In this document: piece by piece, positions 843 through 11,630 of the stretch
Layout of the letters: every line of letters starts with the position of its first letter
Numbering within the stretch: the stretch's first letter is position 1
Source: Natrialba asiatica DSM 12278
GTDB taxonomy: Archaea > Halobacteriota > Halobacteria > Halobacteriales > Natrialbaceae
NCBI RefSeq assembly: GCF_000337555.1
Contig: NZ_AOIO01000007.1
Coordinates: forward strand, 146,293-210,292
Direction of reading: 5' to 3'
DNA: 64,000 nucleotides
The notes under the pieces: model-generated
What the model saw: the letters and a program-made list of their open reading frames with translations, nothing else
Told to the model about the DNA's origin: nothing
The model's database searches: none
Made by a program: the position numbers and the translations under genes

Positions 843-1373
843 ATGAGCACCGGTCATTACGCTATTTCGGCGGGAGAAATCCACCGCGAGCCGCTGTCGG
901 CGGGGACGCGTGCACCGGAGTTTACGCTCCCAACGACCCCGGACCAAACCGTTTCGCTGAGCGATTTTCACGGTCAGCCGGTCGTACTCGCGTTCTACCC
1001 GGCCGATTGGAGCCCTACCTGTGGCGGCCAGCTATCGCTGTACAACCAGCTCCTCCCGGAGTTCCAGGCCCACGGTGCGCAACTGCTCGGCGTCTCGGTG
1101 GACGGCGTCTGGTGTCACCGTGCCTTCGAGGAAGACAGGAATATCCACTTCCCACTACTCGCCGATTTCGAGCCGAAAGGTGCCATCGCAAAAGCTTACG
1201 GCGTGTATCGTGATGCCGTCGGAACGAGCGAACGGGCGCTGTTCGTTATCGATGCCGGCGGTATTATTCAGTGGAGTTACGTCTCTCCGATCGGAATCAA
1301 CCCCGGTGCCGACGGTATCCTTCGCGAACTCGAGGCCCTTTCCACGACCGTCGATATGGAGGAGAGTCGATGA
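843..1373 (+). CDS. Peroxiredoxin (AhpC/TSA, AhpE/BCP-like)
   Basis: A 176-residue thioredoxin-fold peroxidase that reduces hydroperoxides with a cysteine. The peroxidatic site is visible as FYPADWSPTCGG with Cys60, matching the family pattern in which Thr and Pro precede the Cys; a second Cys at position 91 (VWCHRAF) could be the resolving residue. Length is typical for BCP/AhpE-like enzymes, with no signal peptide, so it acts in the cytoplasm. Its stop overlaps the start of the downstream DsbA-like gene (ATGA), so the two are translated together, and the DsbA-like protein is a plausible electron partner. That partnership is inference. Confidence 0.88.
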   Translation: MSTGHYAISAGEIHREPLSAGTRAPEFTLPTTPDQTVSLSDFHGQPVVLAFYPADWSPTCGGQLSLYNQLLPEFQAHGAQLLGVSVDGVWCHRAFEEDRNIHFPLLADFEPKGAIAKAYGVYRDAVGTSERALFVIDAGGIIQWSYVSPIGINPGADGILRELEALSTTVDMEESR

Positions 1374-1936
1374 GTGGCGACCCGACTCGATCTGACGTCT
1401 CCCAACTGGTTGTTCCCGTGACTGAGGACGACCACCGGCAGGGCCCCGACGATGCCGCCGTCACGCTCGTCGAGTACGGCGACTACCAGTGTTCGCATTG
1501 CGGGCAGGCGTCCCCTCTCATCAAGGACGTGCAGGAACAGTTCGGAGACGATCTGCGGTTCGTCTTTCGGAATTTCCCGCTCACGTCCATACATAAGTAC
1601 GCCCAACACGCCGCCGAGGCAGCCGAAGCCGCCGGTGCGCAGGGCGAAGAGGAATTTTGGTCGATGCACGATCTGCTTTACGAAAACCAAGACGCTCTCG
1701 ACGACGAGTCGCTGATTACGTACGCCGAACAACTCGGTCTCGATCCCGAACGGTTTCGGAGCGACTTCGCAAGTCACGCCTTCGAAGATCGAATCCACGA
1801 ACAGTTCGTCGGCGGGGCTCGTTCGGGAGTCAACGGAACACCGACGTTCTATATCAACGGCGAACGCTACGACGGCTCGTGGTCTCCGTCCCCACTATCG
1901 ACTGCAATTCAGCGAGTACTTTCATCTAGTCGGTGA
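1370..1936 (+). CDS. DsbA-family thioredoxin-fold protein
   Basis: A 188-residue thiol oxidoreductase of the DsbA/FrnE type. The redox motif is Cys41-Ser-His-Cys44 just after a VTLVEYGDYQC strand, the helical insertion holds PLTSIHKYAQHAAEAAEAA, and the cis-proline loop is GVNGTPTFYING. The start was set at 1370, where ATG overlaps the peroxiredoxin stop by four bases, rather than at any earlier in-frame codon. There is no signal peptide or TM segment, so it is cytoplasmic, unlike bacterial DsbA. It closely resembles the N-terminal domain of the next gene, which suggests local duplication. Likely role: thiol-disulfide exchange supporting the peroxidase or protein folding under oxidative stress. 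Confidence 0.85.
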   Translation: MSGDPTRSDVSQLVVPVTEDDHRQGPDDAAVTLVEYGDYQCSHCGQASPLIKDVQEQFGDDLRFVFRNFPLTSIHKYAQHAAEAAEAAGAQGEEEFWSMHDLLYENQDALDDESLITYAEQLGLDPERFRSDFASHAFEDRIHEQFVGGARSGVNGTPTFYINGERYDGSWSPSPLSTAIQRVLSSSR

Positions 1937-2003: not shown

Positions 2004-3524
2004 ATGAGTGAGACTGAGATACAAACGTTAGAGATGCCGGTTAGCGGACGCGATCATATTCGAGGCTCTGACGGGGCCTCCGTGACGCTCGTCCAATATA
2101 GTGATTATGAATGCCTATCTTGCGGGGATATTTACCCGATCATCCAGCGGATCCAAAACCGGATCGGTACTCGGCTTCAACTCGTGTTTCGGAACTTTCC
2201 ATTAACTCAACAGCATCCGCGCGCACAACAGGCAGCGGAAGCCGCCGAGGCCGCGGGCGCACAGGGCCGATTTTGGGAGATGCACGATCTCCTCTACCAA
2301 CACCAGGACGCGCTTGCTCGAGAGGATCTTATTGGGTATGCTGAACAACTCGCCCTCGATACCGATCGATTCACGGACGAATTAGACACCGGGACGTACG
2401 AGAGGCGGATTCAGAACGACGTTCAAAGTGGCGTGAGAAGCGGTGTGAACGGTGTTCCAACCTTTTTCATTAACGGTGAGCGCTACGATGGGCCGCTCAC
2501 TTTCGACTCGTTACTCGCCACTATCGCCAGCGCAGGCGATCTCATCGATATCCAACAATCGATGCAACGGGAGAACCGCGAGCTTCGAGAGACGATCGAT
2601 AGATCTCGCCAGGGCGCGCCTGCAGCGGGCGAGGCAGTTCGTGACCGTTTTTCTGCGGACGAAATTTTCCAGCGAGTAACGGCGACTGCGTACGAAGATA
2701 TCGATCGGAGCAAACAACTCCTGTTTTTCAGTGGGCTCGCCGCTGGCATCAGCGTCGGGGGGACGTTCCTTGCACGAGCAGCCATGACGACAGCCTATCC
2801 GGACGACCCAACCGGGATCGGGAATATTCTTTATCCGATCGGATTCATAATTATCGTCCTCGGAAACTACCAGCTATTCACCGAAAATACATTAACGCCA
2901 GTAACACTCGTCTTGACGCGATTTGCAAGCCTCCCGCAACTCCTTCGCCTCTGGGGAATCGTTCTTGCTGCGAATGTCATCGGCGCGGGAATCGTCGCCT
3001 ATCTCCTCGCTACCACGAATGTCTTTACTCCGGAAACCGCCGAGACGGCACAGCAATTCGGCGAGCATGCGCTGAGCGTCTCATGGTCGGGACTCTTCTA
3101 TAAAGGCGCATTCGCTGGTGGACTTGTCGCAACGATGGTCTGGCTCGTTCACGCTGCGCGAGATTCGCTCTCGCGATTCTTCATCGTGTACTTGATCATG
3201 TTTACGGTCCCTGCCACGGAACTGTTTCACTGTGTCGTCGGTGCCTGCGAAGTACTGTTCCTGGTGTTTGCCGGCGAAGCGGGGCTTCTCACCGTTTTCA
3301 CTCAATTTTTTGTCCCAGTTGCCCTCGGTAATACGGTCGGTGGTGTCGTGTTTGTCGCTCTTGTGAACTACAGTATGACCGAAATCCGGCACTTCCCCGA
3401 CCGAGGTCAGCAACGCCGTGAACTCTCCTGGCCAGAATGGGTGTTTGGAACTCGTTTGATAGAACGACTCACCTCGATACGGCGTCGCGATGATGCCAAT
3501 ACAAGCGAGACCCCCTCTGAATGA
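2004..3524 (+). CDS. DsbA domain fused to formate/nitrite/hydrosulfide-type (FNT) channel
   Basis: A 506-residue two-part protein. Residues about 1-180 are a DsbA-like thioredoxin domain with Cys37-Leu-Ser-Cys40 and the cis-Pro loop GVPTFFING. A charged linker (about 185-225) leads to a membrane domain (about 235-470) with six hydrophobic stretches and FNT signatures such as GNYQLFTENTL, the FYKGAFAGG segment and GNTVGG. FNT proteins form pentameric channels for formate, nitrite or hydrosulfide with both termini in the cytoplasm, so the thiol domain should sit on the cytoplasmic face. It follows a peroxiredoxin and a second DsbA protein. I infer control of, or chemistry on, a sulfur or oxyanion substrate passing the channel; substrate is unknown. 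Confidence 0.85.
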   Translation: MSETEIQTLEMPVSGRDHIRGSDGASVTLVQYSDYECLSCGDIYPIIQRIQNRIGTRLQLVFRNFPLTQQHPRAQQAAEAAEAAGAQGRFWEMHDLLYQHQDALAREDLIGYAEQLALDTDRFTDELDTGTYERRIQNDVQSGVRSGVNGVPTFFINGERYDGPLTFDSLLATIASAGDLIDIQQSMQRENRELRETIDRSRQGAPAAGEAVRDRFSADEIFQRVTATAYEDIDRSKQLLFFSGLAAGISVGGTFLARAAMTTAYPDDPTGIGNILYPIGFIIIVLGNYQLFTENTLTPVTLVLTRFASLPQLLRLWGIVLAANVIGAGIVAYLLATTNVFTPETAETAQQFGEHALSVSWSGLFYKGAFAGGLVATMVWLVHAARDSLSRFFIVYLIMFTVPATELFHCVVGACEVLFLVFAGEAGLLTVFTQFFVPVALGNTVGGVVFVALVNYSMTEIRHFPDRGQQRRELSWPEWVFGTRLIERLTSIRRRDDANTSETPSE

Positions 3525-6703: not shown

Positions 6704-7360
6704 CTAATTGCTTAGTCGTCCCGAACTCTGCACCGTCGGGAGGTTCCAGTTGTAAGCAACCGCCGCTAACCGAGTCATAACGGTCACTACCGCACACACC
6801 ACAGCAGCCGTACTCCCGGCCGCTCCTACCGTTCCCACGAGCCAGTATGCACTGCCACCGAGGACTGCACAACTCGCATAGAAATCCTCGAAGAGGATGA
6901 ACGGGGATCGGTCGAGAAGAATATCTGCAAACGCGCCACCGCCGACGGCGTTGATCGTCGCAATAGCAACGATGCCAACCGCTGAAACACCCGCCTCAGT
7001 TGCGACGATAGCGCCGGTCGTCGTAAAGGCAGCGAGCCCGATAGCATCCGAGACAAGGGTGACTGGATGCGTTTCCGGCGATGTTAGAACGATACTCAGC
7101 ACGATTGCCAAGCCGACTCCGAGTAACCCCAAACTGATTTCGATCGGTGACTGGAGTGCTAATGGAACTCGTGTCACGAGGAGATCGCGCGTCGCTCCAC
7201 CAGCAAACGCCATTGCTAGTCCGGCGATGGTAACCCCGAACAGGTCGAACTCCTCACGGATCGCCTTTGATGATCCAACGAGTGCGAACGCAACCAAGCC
7301 GATCGTATTCATCACGGCAAATGGATCGCCGAATAGTAGGGTGATGACGTCCCGACTCAC
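6704..7360 (-). CDS. TRIC/UPF0126 (YadS-like) membrane channel or transporter
   Basis: A 218-residue membrane protein with six or seven hydrophobic segments and the duplicated glycine-rich signatures of the UPF0126/TRIC family: AFALVGSSKAIREEFDLFGV with AGLAMAFAGGATRDLL in the first half and a matching IGLAAFTTTGAIVA with INAVGGGAFADILL in the second. Family members are trimeric cation channels or, in bacteria, linked with glycine transport. The length matches the family. It is oriented away from the folded non-coding region to its right. The name is safe; the transported species is not known. Confidence 0.85.
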   Translation of the reverse strand: MSRDVITLLFGDPFAVMNTIGLVAFALVGSSKAIREEFDLFGVTIAGLAMAFAGGATRDLLVTRVPLALQSPIEISLGLLGVGLAIVLSIVLTSPETHPVTLVSDAIGLAAFTTTGAIVATEAGVSAVGIVAIATINAVGGGAFADILLDRSPFILFEDFYASCAVLGGSAYWLVGTVGAAGSTAAVVCAVVTVMTRLAAVAYNWNLPTVQSSGRLSN

Positions 7361-7730: not shown

Positions 7731-7843
7731 ACCGTTATCAACTTCTACCCGATTCCCAGTCACTCGAAATCGTCCTCCGTTCGGGCGGCCGTTTGGATTG
7801 GTGACTCGACCACCGCCGATGTCGTCGACCAGTGACCGACGGC

Positions 7844-7890
7844 GGAGCTATAAATCGCAAAGAGAGTACTCGCGCCGAAAGGCGCGGGTG
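7844..7890 (+). promoter_or_regulatory. TATA-like box followed by a GNRA hairpin
   Basis: GCTATAAATC at about 7847-7856 is a good TATA box, and CGCGCC-GAAA-GGCGCG at 7871-7886 is a 6-base hairpin with a GNRA tetraloop. They could belong to a second small RNA or to the leader of the gene at 8040. Confidence 0.3.
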
Positions 7891-8039
7891 GATATCGATC
7901 GGCAGATCCGCTTGTAACGCGAGTTCAGTTCCAGAGTGATGCCTATATCGACGCTCTGCTCGTGATCACGGTCGTTGCGATCCGTCACGCACGGAGCGGG
8001 GGGAGAAGATTTACCACTGACTGGCCATTCAGCTAGGGT

Positions 8040-8465
8040 ATGGACCAGTCGACATCCCGCAAGCGACCGTGGCTTGCAGCAGGACTCGGACTGCTTGTTA
8101 CCGGACTCGGGCAACTGTACCTCCGCCGCTGGAAACGCGCACTCGGATGGGCGGTCTTTGCGGTGCTCGTCGGCGCATTCCTCGTCCCGGAGTCGACACT
8201 CGCAAACCCCGCATCAGCCGACCTCGTGGATGGTGCTCCGCTTCTCGTCGTCGGCGTCCTGAGCGTCGTCGACGCGTATCTCATCGCTCGACGACACAAC
8301 GTCCGACTCGCCGTCGCACAGGAATCCCGTTGTCCGTCCTGCTATCGTGAACTCGACGCTGACGTCGCGTTCTGCCCTTGGTGTGGAAGCGAGGTGCAGT
8401 CGACAGCAGCGGCCGACGGCTCGGCGCGGACCGACCTCGATACTTCGCCGGACGATCGCTTCTGA
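8040..8465 (+). CDS. Small membrane protein with C-terminal zinc ribbon
   Basis: A 141-residue protein with an N-terminal hydrophobic hairpin (LAAGLGLLVTGLGQLYLRRWKRALGW and the AVLVGAFLV segment), a third hydrophobic helix near residues 63-80, and a C-terminal zinc ribbon CPSCYRELDADVAFCPWCG. The GLGQLYLRRWKRAL motif resembles the TM2-type 'G-x-G-x-Y' repeat seen in small archaeal membrane proteins. Zinc-ribbon membrane proteins of this layout are common in haloarchaea without a known function. A further acidic tail follows the ribbon. Confidence 0.75.
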   Translation: MDQSTSRKRPWLAAGLGLLVTGLGQLYLRRWKRALGWAVFAVLVGAFLVPESTLANPASADLVDGAPLLVVGVLSVVDAYLIARRHNVRLAVAQESRCPSCYRELDADVAFCPWCGSEVQSTAAADGSARTDLDTSPDDRF

Positions 8466-8603
8466 ACTCGGGGTAGTTTTGCCCACTGTCGTCTTGTGAC
8501 TTCATCATCGGACAGTCTCTGAAAGCCAAGGCGCGAACCCGTTCTGTGGTGAACTCGTCCTCGGACTGAGCGGTAAAAAGTGCCCGTAACGACCCGAGTT
8601 CGG

Positions 8604-11600
8604 TTACTTTTCGGTGCGGTCCTGGATCGCTTGCCCGCCGTCGCTGGCTGCGGGACCGCCTGACCGACTCGGGGCGTCGAAGGAGACGTCCGGACCGAGG
8701 TACTTCGTCCAGACGACGAGGAGGCTCGGGAGTACGAGCACGCTCGCGAGGAACGCGTAGATGATCGTCAGTCCGGTGATGATGCCGAACTGCTGAAGCG
8801 GTGGCAAGATGGCGAATGCGAGGACGCCGAAGCCGCCGACGGTCGTCGCCGCGCTGCCCAGCAGTGCGCCACCTGTTCCGGTGACCGTCCGGGACATCGC
8901 TTCCCAGACGGATCCGGTTCGTTTCAGTTCGAGGCTATACCGCTCGCTCATGTGGATACTGTAGGCGACGCCGAGCCCGACGGTGAGGCTCGTGATCATC
9001 CCCGTCATGACGTTGAACGGGATTCCGAGTAGGTACATCGTCCCGAGAATCCACGAGACGCTGAAGACGACCGGCAGCAGCGTTACCGCGCCGAGCGTTG
9101 CGCTTCCTTCCGTGATCCGGTAGGCGATCATCAGGAACGCGAAGACGGCGACGAGCGTGATCAGCAGGCTCTCGATAACCGTGTCCATCAACTGCCCCTG
9201 AACGATGTCGAACAGGATCGTCTGGCCGGTTGCCGTAGCCTCGACCCCGTTCCCGTCGATGCCGTCTGCGATGGATCGCATCTCGGTCGTAACGTCGCTC
9301 ATGGCCGCGGTCCCACTCGTCGAGACGACCATCCGAACGGCCTCGTAGTCGCCGTCATCGGTCTGATGGATGACGCCGGCCGCTTCGTCGGGAGCGACCT
9401 CGAACAGTTCATCGTACACTTGTTCGATGTTCCGGTCGGGGATCCCGTCGTCGTCACTATCGGCTGCGGCAACCGTTGCGTTGAACGATTCGTTCTCGGC
9501 GGCGACCTGCTGCATCGTCCCGAGGGGACTCTGAATGTTAGCCTCACCGCTCGAGAGGGTGACGGCAACATCGCTGTCAGCAGTCTCGTTCTCGGCGTCC
9601 GAGAGCTGCTGTAATGTCTCCGGATCGGTTACGTTCCCCTCGACGAGAATCTGCGCTTGCGAGTCCTCCCGAACGAAGTTCTCGTTGACGAACTCGAGAT
9701 TCTCCTTCATCGAGTACTCGCCGGGCTCGAGTGGTCCGGGAAGGTTGTTCGTCCACTCCGGTGGGTCCTCTGCGATGAAGTCCTCCTGATTGAAGCTGGT
9801 ATCGACCTGCGTCGCACCGTATGCACCGCCTGCACTCACGAGGACTGCGACCAGGATGATGACGATCGGTATCCGTCGTGCTGCCGTCGAACCGGTGGAC
9901 AGGACCTGGCTAAACCGGCCGCCACCCGTCCCGAACGCGCGCTTATTCCGATCGAACCCACGGTTTTCGAGGAACCCGTCGAGTTCAACTTTGAGTGCCG
10001 GAATCAAGACGCCGAAGACGAGCAAGGCGGCCGTGATACCGACTGCACTCACGATCCCGAAGTCCTGAATCGGCGGGACCGGACTCGTGAGATTCGAGAG
10101 GAAGCCGATCGCTGTTGTCGCGGTCACCAACACGAGTGCAATGCCGACGCCGGCCAGTGCCACTCGCATCGAGCCGCGGGCGTCATCGTCGCCGTACGCA
10201 CCACCGTTCTGACGCTGTTCGCGGTGGCGCATGAAGATGTGGATCGCGTAGTCTATCGAGAGCCCGATGAGCAGGACCGGCACGGCGATGAACATCTGGT
10301 TGAAGTCGATATCGGCCCAGCCCATGAAGCCGAACGTCCAGACGAGGACGACGGCGATGCCGAATAGCCCGAGGAGGATATCCAAGAGATCGCGGTAGGC
10401 GACGATCAGCGCGACGACGACGAACAGCAGGGCGAGCGGCCCGACGATCGCGAGGCTATCGCCCATCGAATTGTTGATCTCTTCGCCCATGATTCCGCCG
10501 CCGAAGACGATGACATCCGATGTGTCACCGTCGACGCCGTCGTTCGCCAGGGATTGCATCGCGAGTTGCGCGTCGACGAGTTCATCCGATGCCATCCCGC
10601 CTTGACCGCCACTCCCACCGTCGGTCTGGTGCGTAACCAACAGCATCGTCGCGTTCGAACTCGTCGAACCCGCGTCGTAGCTCGTCGGCATGAACGCCTG
10701 TCCGCTCATCTGTCCGGACGAGTTCTCGCCCAGTACGGTTTCGAGCGTCCGCTCGTACGCCGTGGCGTTCATCGCATCGATCGCGTCGATCTGTTCTTGC
10801 AGCGTGGGCGAGGTGGCGTTTTCCAGGGCTGCTTGTTGTGCCTCTAGTTGGCTGCCGAGTTCAGCCAGCCGATCGCTCTGTGCTGCAAGGTCCGTGCTGC
10901 GCTGTTCGAGATCCTCGTACTCGTCGGCGAGGACGCCCTGGGTGCCGCGCTGGTACGCCGTTTCGATCTGGGACTCGTTGTCGGCGGTCCGAAGGAGCTG
11001 TGCCGACTCGTTGAACGTTGCATACTGCGTCTCGTCGAGTTCAACCGACGAGTTTGCACGGACGGTTTCGAACTGTGCACGCGGCGATGTCGACTGGTCT
11101 GCACGAAGCGTATCGAGCGCCGCCCGGAGATCCTGTTGTGTCGCGTTTAGCTCGCTCTGTCGTTGTTCCAGCGCAGCGCGTTCCTCCTGAACGGTTGCGT
11201 TTAACTGCTCGAACTCCGCGGCCGTCGCCTCGAGCTCGCGCTGTTGGTCGCCGGTGATGGACGAGATTGCGACGAGATTCGCCGCGCCGACCGTCGGTTG
11301 CTCGTCGGCGAGTGTCCGATTGATCGTCTCGTTCTCCCGGAACGACTGTTGCAGTCGGAGCGTCTCGAGCAGCGACTCCTGAGTGAGCGTGTTTTCCCCT
11401 TTGACGATCACTTGCGCTGTCGTCGTATTGTTCGCTCCGGTCGAGAAGTTCTCCTCGATGTAGTTCAGTTTCTCCGATTCTGCAGTGTCACTCTGGAACT
11501 GATCGAGCGAGGAGGACTGATCGATCATTCCAGCACCAGCACCCGCGATGACCGTGAGTACGAGCATGAGGGCGATCACGGACCGACTGTGGCTCGTGAC

Positions 11601-11630
11601 CATCGCTGCGAAGCGCTCGAGCCAACTCAT
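8604..11630 (-). CDS. RND-superfamily exporter (MMPL type)
   Basis: A 1008-residue membrane transporter with the duplicated RND layout: one TM helix, a large outside loop, then five TM helices, repeated twice. The first loop holds Gln/Glu-rich coiled-coil sequence (about residues 130-280). Proton-relay type segments include LLIGLSIDYAIHIFMRHREQ in the first half and TVGLGVAYSIHMSERYSLEL in the second, typical of MMPL/HpnN-like exporters. Related proteins move lipids, drugs or membrane components out of the cell using the proton gradient. A TetR gene is divergent upstream with operator-like palindromes between them, so the exporter is probably derepressed by a ligand. Substrate unknown. Confidence 0.88.
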   Translation of the reverse strand: MSWLERFAAMVTSHSRSVIALMLVLTVIAGAGAGMIDQSSSLDQFQSDTAESEKLNYIEENFSTGANNTTTAQVIVKGENTLTQESLLETLRLQQSFRENETINRTLADEQPTVGAANLVAISSITGDQQRELEATAAEFEQLNATVQEERAALEQRQSELNATQQDLRAALDTLRADQSTSPRAQFETVRANSSVELDETQYATFNESAQLLRTADNESQIETAYQRGTQGVLADEYEDLEQRSTDLAAQSDRLAELGSQLEAQQAALENATSPTLQEQIDAIDAMNATAYERTLETVLGENSSGQMSGQAFMPTSYDAGSTSSNATMLLVTHQTDGGSGGQGGMASDELVDAQLAMQSLANDGVDGDTSDVIVFGGGIMGEEINNSMGDSLAIVGPLALLFVVVALIVAYRDLLDILLGLFGIAVVLVWTFGFMGWADIDFNQMFIAVPVLLIGLSIDYAIHIFMRHREQRQNGGAYGDDDARGSMRVALAGVGIALVLVTATTAIGFLSNLTSPVPPIQDFGIVSAVGITAALLVFGVLIPALKVELDGFLENRGFDRNKRAFGTGGGRFSQVLSTGSTAARRIPIVIILVAVLVSAGGAYGATQVDTSFNQEDFIAEDPPEWTNNLPGPLEPGEYSMKENLEFVNENFVREDSQAQILVEGNVTDPETLQQLSDAENETADSDVAVTLSSGEANIQSPLGTMQQVAAENESFNATVAAADSDDDGIPDRNIEQVYDELFEVAPDEAAGVIHQTDDGDYEAVRMVVSTSGTAAMSDVTTEMRSIADGIDGNGVEATATGQTILFDIVQGQLMDTVIESLLITLVAVFAFLMIAYRITEGSATLGAVTLLPVVFSVSWILGTMYLLGIPFNVMTGMITSLTVGLGVAYSIHMSERYSLELKRTGSVWEAMSRTVTGTGGALLGSAATTVGGFGVLAFAILPPLQQFGIITGLTIIYAFLASVLVLPSLLVVWTKYLGPDVSFDAPSRSGGPAASDGGQAIQDRTEK

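Follow-up and report, generated by a model that had tools for sequence, protein, structure and literature searches.

A conserved fusion of a DsbA-type thiol domain to an FNT channel in Natrialba asiatica and its relatives, possibly a redox-controlled transporter

Thiol oxidoreductases of the BdbD and DsbA kind act outside the cytoplasmic membrane, and in mycobacteria AhpE and mycoredoxin form a pair in which a 1-Cys peroxiredoxin is served by a dedicated donor of thioredoxin fold. FNT channels and DsbA proteins are already known kinds of protein, as are, from database annotation, fusions of NhaA to DsbA. Channels for hydrosulfide and for nitrite both belong to the FNT family, and the residues that mark its subfamilies are set out in Table 4 of PMC5525234, of which the accessible part is cited here throughout. 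Our literature search, outside which most subscription papers lay, returned no paper describing a DsbA-FNT or FNT-DsbA protein, and the word 'fused' has no occurrence in the accessible part of PMC5525234; the DsbA-FNT architecture may well be listed automatically in domain databases.

Within the window, by which we mean the whole stretch of 64,000 nucleotides of Natrialba asiatica DSM 12278 that was analysed (contig NZ_AOIO01000007.1, positions 146,293 to 210,292), one gene encodes such a protein (Table 1). The original prediction, made from the sequence letters, had placed a thiol domain with a Cys37-x-x-Cys40 motif and an FNT channel in a single reading frame adjoined by a peroxiredoxin and a second DsbA, and this layout was borne out. 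The protein carries both Pfam families above their cut-offs, with Thioredoxin_4 at residues 15-174 (E 3.2e-23), DSBA at 54-171 (likewise above cut-off) and Form_Nir_trans at 220-456 (E 1.3e-49), the last scoring 169.2 bits against a curated cut-off of 34.6; Na_H_antiport_1 was absent from the window fusion protein in the Pfam search, FNT being found instead. Cysteines are four in all, at residues 37, 40, 410 and 415. The genes for the peroxiredoxin and the stand-alone DsbA lie just upstream on the same strand, the ATG of the latter at 1370 overlapping the stop codon of the former, and 67 bases separate the stand-alone DsbA gene from the fusion gene. Elsewhere in the window, the minus strand encodes what we take to be a small membrane protein resembling the TRIC/YadS group (6704-7360) and presumably a large RND/MMPL-like transporter (8604-11630).

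Table 1. The fusion gene, its parts and its upstream neighbours, in window coordinates
Feature	Position	Strand	Basis or remark
AhpE-like 1-Cys peroxiredoxin gene, 176 aa	843..1373	+	Pfam AhpC-TSA, E 1.1e-37
Stand-alone DsbA-family protein, predicted cytoplasmic	1370..1936	+	Pfam Thioredoxin_4, E 7.4e-25; CSHC motif
DsbA-FNT fusion gene	2004..3524	+	Single ATG-started frame, 506 aa, without internal stop
DsbA/Thioredoxin_4 domain, residues 15-174	2046..2525	+	Pfam Thioredoxin_4; fold match BdbD 3eu3
Active-site motif Cys37-Leu-Ser-Cys40	2112..2123	+	Sequence
Helical linker joining the domains, residues 178-217	2535..2654	+	AlphaFold2 model; low confidence at 204-213
FNT channel domain, residues 220-456, six TM segments, TM2 and TM5 broken	2661..3371	+	Pfam, AlphaFold2 model
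Pore histidine, residue 409 (FocA His209), then Cys410	3228..3233	+	Alignment to E. coli FocA, NirC and YfdC
Cys415 (FocA position 215)	3246..3248	+	Same FocA/NirC/YfdC alignment

The DsbA-FNT fusion is real and conserved, and is not a sequencing artefact. Both grounds on which the original prediction was expected to fall, a sequencing error joining two genes and absence from relatives, were removed by a search of 391 genomes sampled from the class, 16 of which yielded 18 full-length, stop-free matches spanning both domains; these copies rule out erroneous or chance joining. Through profile search on stop-to-stop frames, we read the architecture of 80 loci in a scan of named genomes and identified 16 DsbA-FNT genes (one, L105, cut by a contig end), five FNT-DsbA genes, two broken fusions (L095, a split gene, and L098, a broken frame), 20 FNT genes with universal-stress (USP) domains and 37 FNT genes alone. 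A sixth FNT-DsbA protein was found among plasmid records, on Salinibacter ruber pSR116, and the six proteins of this reverse order come from salt-loving bacteria, namely Salinibacter, Balneolaceae and relatives. Pfam independently confirmed both orders (FNT first in L057 and L101, DsbA first in L056, L073 and L099) and the presence of both families in 19/19 members of alignment A1. The source Natrialba genome has three FNT genes, namely two DsbA-FNT copies, which share 58% identity, and one FNT whose C-terminus bears universal-stress domains. A phylum search at a strict limit found the fusion in 1/294 genomes, the window's own, in a sample that left out other carriers. When relatives of the DsbA domain alone were sought, this DsbA type was present in 4/61 genomes, all four of them fusion carriers, at ten places: seven fusion genes (one a split copy) and three stand-alone genes beside a peroxiredoxin.

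Several of the related genes show further variation. In the second copy of Natrialba aegyptia, an element of about 120 bases with 25-base inverted ends (L063:9483-9610) separates the DsbA part from the FNT part and, through the stop codon it carries, splits the fusion gene. The Haladaptatus halobius gene (L098, around 7818-9587) runs in more than one frame and is thus broken or misread, and the annotated start of L056 (NZ_CP096020.1, 199881-201389) stands at the FNT part and omits the DsbA domain, the frame being open through both. Many haloarchaeal FNT relatives carry two universal-stress-protein domains at the C-terminus (20/80 loci by profile search, identified in Pfam as Usp; among them L129, L133-L136, L138-L141 and G000:C20, i.e. 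L002), which is a second kind of cytoplasmic attachment to the same channel family.

An AlphaFold2 model of the whole protein from a 72-row alignment (mean pLDDT 89.6, pTM 0.67), which replaced a weak earlier model from 19 close sequences (pLDDT 70), shows both folds, and the six-helix FNT channel of the original prediction appears in it with the broken helices of TM2 and TM5 at residues 279-287/294-304 and 388-404/410-422. Structure matching placed the FNT part with LciA, HSC and FocA at Z about 33 (FocA 9g49, Z 33.0; HSC 3tds, Z 33.0) and the DsbA part with BdbD 3eu3 (Z 22.8, rmsd 2.4 over 175 residues). As the linker is uncertain at 204-213, the model does not fix the relative placement of the two domains. 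No hydrophobic stretch was found before residue 235 of the fusion protein, and the DsbA domain is therefore not of the exported kind. Across 22 fused proteins, segments predicted inside carry on average 9.0, 2.4, 1.8 and 7.6 Lys+Arg and those predicted outside 0.0, 0.4 and 0.1, a pattern by which both FNT ends, and hence the thiol domain, very probably lie in the cytoplasm, as had been proposed. As inside loops carry Lys/Arg and outside loops almost none, both orders put the thiol domain on the same side, and C-terminal attachment in the bacterial FNT-DsbA proteins would likewise leave it cytoplasmic.

The proposed link of the thiol domain to hydrosulfide transport was not supported by comparison of subfamily residues. 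Aligned with E. coli FocA, NirC and YfdC, the window protein has Y75, F79, L89, F90, T91, E92, A156, G172, V175, V202, F208, H209, C210, V212, C215, F254 and N262 at FocA positions, which include the family-conserved Leu89, Thr91 and His209. It shows the whole YfdC pattern of F79, F90, E92, G172, I/V/M/L at 202, V212 and F254, and does not fit the HSC, NirC or FocA pattern in the accessible part of PMC5525234 (Table 4); at the HSC marks F202, A212, N172, E/D208 and a small residue at 92 it has V, V, G, F and E instead. Position 86, which is charged in 75-81% of YfdC members (PMC5525234), is Asn in the window protein, and we accordingly call the channel YfdC-type by its residues and assign it to neither the alpha nor the beta group. 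The one direct hint of formate comes from the Halocatena salina plasmid, where the fusion is preceded by two formamidase genes with an AmiS/UreI transporter gene between them and is followed by a peroxiredoxin; a link to formate through formamidase was considered and set aside, as it concerns one genome only and the sole other locus with it, L034, is apparently the same place.

The two domains have left different phylogenetic records. Our tree of 54 DsbA domains contains 36 that are FNT-linked, 30 from DsbA-FNT genes (two of them broken) and six from FNT-DsbA genes, and all of these fall into one clade (98/98) apart from the NhaA-fused and stand-alone DsbAs; the six C-terminal domains form a clade (100/100), and the NhaA-linked DsbAs make up a separate one that also takes in two rows not scored as fused. 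Pieces below 120 aa, identical copies and L190 (a near-copy of L058) were left out, the split L095 and the broken L098 were counted as fused in this tree, and L095 also in the independent-pairs test given below. The fused FNT domains fall in several lineages, comprising the window group with Halosolutus, Halocatena, Haladaptatus and Saliphagus, the Natrinema, Halostagnicola and second Natrialba copies, a third group near Salinibacteraceae proteins, and a Halocatena/YIM A00010 set that branches from inside the unfused FNTs of haloarchaea. A single clade of all fused FNTs was rejected (AU p 1.4e-51) over 50 rows, which remained after removal of pieces below 200 aa (two, both L098), of identical copies (161 to 123) and of near-duplicates of unfused rows (123 to 92), followed by thinning and removal of distant references. 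One clade of DsbAs and several lineages of FNTs together imply that the pairing outlived changes of FNT partner or was made anew: either the DsbA stayed attached while FNT partners and domain order changed, or close DsbAs joined FNTs more than once. Placing the FNT-DsbA clade or the Halocatena/YIM A00010 set outside the other fused DsbAs was not rejected (p 0.277 and 0.217), so that a domain that changed ends and a domain fused twice both stand. Grouping the C-terminal DsbAs with the NhaA type (AU p 0.169) or with bacterial peroxiredoxin-linked DsbAs (AU p 0.123) was likewise not rejected, and grouping the Halocatena/YIM A00010 fused set with haloarchaeal neighbour DsbAs was (p 0.0135). We do not favour an origin by tandem duplication of the neighbouring DsbA and later fusion, both because of this last rejection and because the neighbour belongs to a different clade from the fused domain.

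The neighbouring peroxiredoxin has its best PDB relatives in M. tuberculosis Rv2238c, which we take to be AhpE. As the peroxidatic Cys is the only invariant cysteine among 10 relatives, the enzyme should depend on a thiol donor other than itself. No neighbour of the fusions recurs more often than peroxiredoxin, at 6/33 fused loci: upstream with its own DsbA at four, and directly downstream without a separate DsbA at two in Halocatena; the other 27 have none nearby. The next real neighbour cluster, an alpha/beta hydrolase, occurs at 5/33 loci and reflects partly close synteny, other clusters occur at 4 or 3 of 33 at varied distances, and no sulfur or nitrite enzyme was recognised among recurrent neighbours at the 33 fused loci. 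A plasmid search for this peroxiredoxin gave 20 records at E 1e-20. At identities of at least 60%, this DsbA type is the next gene in 10/10 records (Halosolutus, Bosea, Halocatena marina twice, three Azospirillum, Sinorhizobium, Granulicella and Halocatena salina), the next gene in the Halocatena salina record being the DsbA-FNT fusion itself, whereas among the 10 records below 50% identity nine have no DsbA match and one has a match about 250 kb away. From gene neighbourhood only, we infer that the peroxiredoxin and this DsbA type are partners, and its pairing with the fusion in Halocatena indicates that the fused DsbA can probably stand in for the stand-alone one. On plasmids of Nostoc and Trichormus (L058, L190) a close stand-alone DsbA relative lies among GroEL, Hsp20 and DnaK genes, in Trichormus also YfdX genes, a stress-island setting.

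The active-site motif differs with domain order. CxxC is kept in 29/30 rows from DsbA-FNT genes and in 5/5 NhaA rows, and all six C-terminal domains have CxxS (five CPTS and one CVTS; L057, L100, L101, L107, L108, L118). As CxxS cannot form an internal disulfide and one DsbA-FNT protein has SxxC, a CxxC switch is not universal. The latter protein (L041/L073, G249) reads SSEC in place of CxxC and has one cysteine in its whole frame. A cysteine just after TM6, in a DRxC motif in most, is present in all six FNT-DsbA proteins, in several of the third FNT group and in unfused L106, L111 and L116; in the FNT-DsbA proteins, together with the C-terminal CxxS, it suggests a monothiol version.

The explanation that we prefer, although we give it somewhat less than an even chance, is that a peroxide- or thiol-responsive domain tethered to the mouth of the channel controls small-solute flux. 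Peroxide would oxidise the AhpE-like peroxiredoxin, the DsbA domain would exchange thiols with it and with the thiol pool of the cell, and the redox state or docking of the DsbA domain at the cytoplasmic mouth would then alter passage through the channel, the solute being small and probably the anion of a weak acid, for instance formate, that moves with a proton. Transport control, its direction at the gating step and the solute are conjecture; the fusion would probably serve to tie the channel to the oxidation state of the cell. Tethering in either order, cytoplasmic placement, the kept CxxC in archaea, the kept FNT residues and the peroxiredoxin pairing make a redox-responsive module the simplest reading, while the 27 loci without peroxiredoxin and the monothiol bacterial version weigh most against one mechanism common to all. 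Its wider form, a thiol-redox-controlled FNT channel in which a DsbA lineage found here only on FNT, in either order, performs peroxide/thiol-sensing control or relay at the cytoplasmic mouth, as a dithiol in haloarchaea and as a monothiol (CxxS) in Balneolota/Rhodothermota, is a genuine possibility that we hold more tentatively.

The channel might instead serve mainly as an anchor, with the DsbA domain placed at the membrane to reduce the peroxiredoxin or further proteins of the cytoplasm, and with transport running unregulated by it. We regard this as unlikely, though it deserves attention, as the adjacent 1-Cys peroxiredoxin would need such a donor, close relatives of that enzyme occur paired with this DsbA type, and the joining of the same type to NhaA implies that the membrane partner varies; yet the equivalents of Leu89, Thr91, His209 and Asn262 are kept in the fused proteins, needlessly for a mere anchor, and the FNT-linked DsbAs are a lineage of their own. 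Disulfide exchange of the thiol domain with Cys410 and Cys415, at or near the pore histidine, could also open or close the pore directly, and the window and Natrinema/Natrialba lineages do combine CxxC with cysteines at FocA 210 and 215 and have few or no others. This we consider improbable: one or both pore cysteines are missing in fused L012, L056, L096, L099 and L107 (both in L096, L099 and L107), both are present in unfused bacterial relatives, and solved FocA (3kly) likewise has a Cys right after the pore histidine. In the 50-row tree, Cys is found at FocA 210 in 19/24 fused vs 5/26 unfused rows, at 215 in 15/24 vs 14/26, and in the tail in 9/24 vs 2/26 (L111 and L116 having been thinned out), but none of the three tracks fusion over independent pairs, a weak test of 3 to 6 pairs only. 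Coupling through the pore cysteines thus draws no support from the independent pairs, and such chemistry has no comparative support beyond shared ancestry.

The remaining alternatives to redox control concern what the channel carries. It could admit a species of sulfur or nitrogen (HS-, persulfide, nitrite/NO) for processing by the thiol domain on entry, a reading to which the hydrosulfide and nitrite channels of the family (PMC5525234), the predicted position of the thiol domain at the inner mouth and two DsrE-family genes near the Salinibacter FNT-DsbA gene lend some colour. We give it little credence, as the residues marking HSC and NirC in the accessible part of PMC5525234 are not those of the window protein and the recurrent neighbours of fused genes include no recognised sulfur or nitrite enzyme. 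Very improbable, to our minds, is an aquaporin-like pore passing a neutral oxidant or acid (H2O2, formic acid), with the thiol domain and peroxiredoxin pathway acting on what enters. Aquaporins match the model at Z about 18, the equivalents of FocA Lys156 and Glu208 are lost, and the peroxiredoxin linkage would fit, but both losses are common to unfused YfdC-type proteins.

If redox control of the fusion holds true, it would open a direct route to asking if, and by what means, redox state governs a channel of FNT fold, and would give a way into the uncharacterised YfdC groups. One DsbA type recurs on NhaA, on both ends of FNT and next to peroxiredoxin, which suggests that a thiol module of the cytoplasm can be moved about to control transport under stress. 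Among known systems, the hydrosulfide channel HSC (PDB 3tdo) shares the FNT fold (Z about 33) and differs in its subfamily-marking residues, at about 20% identity. With the YfdC subfamilies (PMC5525234) the window protein agrees at FocA 75, 79, 90, 91, 92, 172, 202, 212 and 254 in the accessible part of that source, whereas E. coli YfdC and the stand-alone relatives compared here have no DsbA domain and window position 86 is Asn, not charged. BdbD and DsbA share fold (Z 22.8) and CxxC with the fused domain, which in contrast has no export signal and is predicted to be cytoplasmic. The AhpE-mycoredoxin pair resembles the proposed partnership in joining a 1-Cys peroxiredoxin with a dedicated donor of thioredoxin fold, although the candidate donor here is DsbA-type and, in the fusion, tethered to a channel. 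Another H+-coupled transporter, the Na+/H+ antiporter NhaA, bears the same Thioredoxin_4/DsbA type at its C-terminus (e.g. Streptomyces sp. Caat 7-52, L164) with CxxC in 5/5, but it belongs to a transporter family unrelated to FNT and its DsbA domains form a separate clade.
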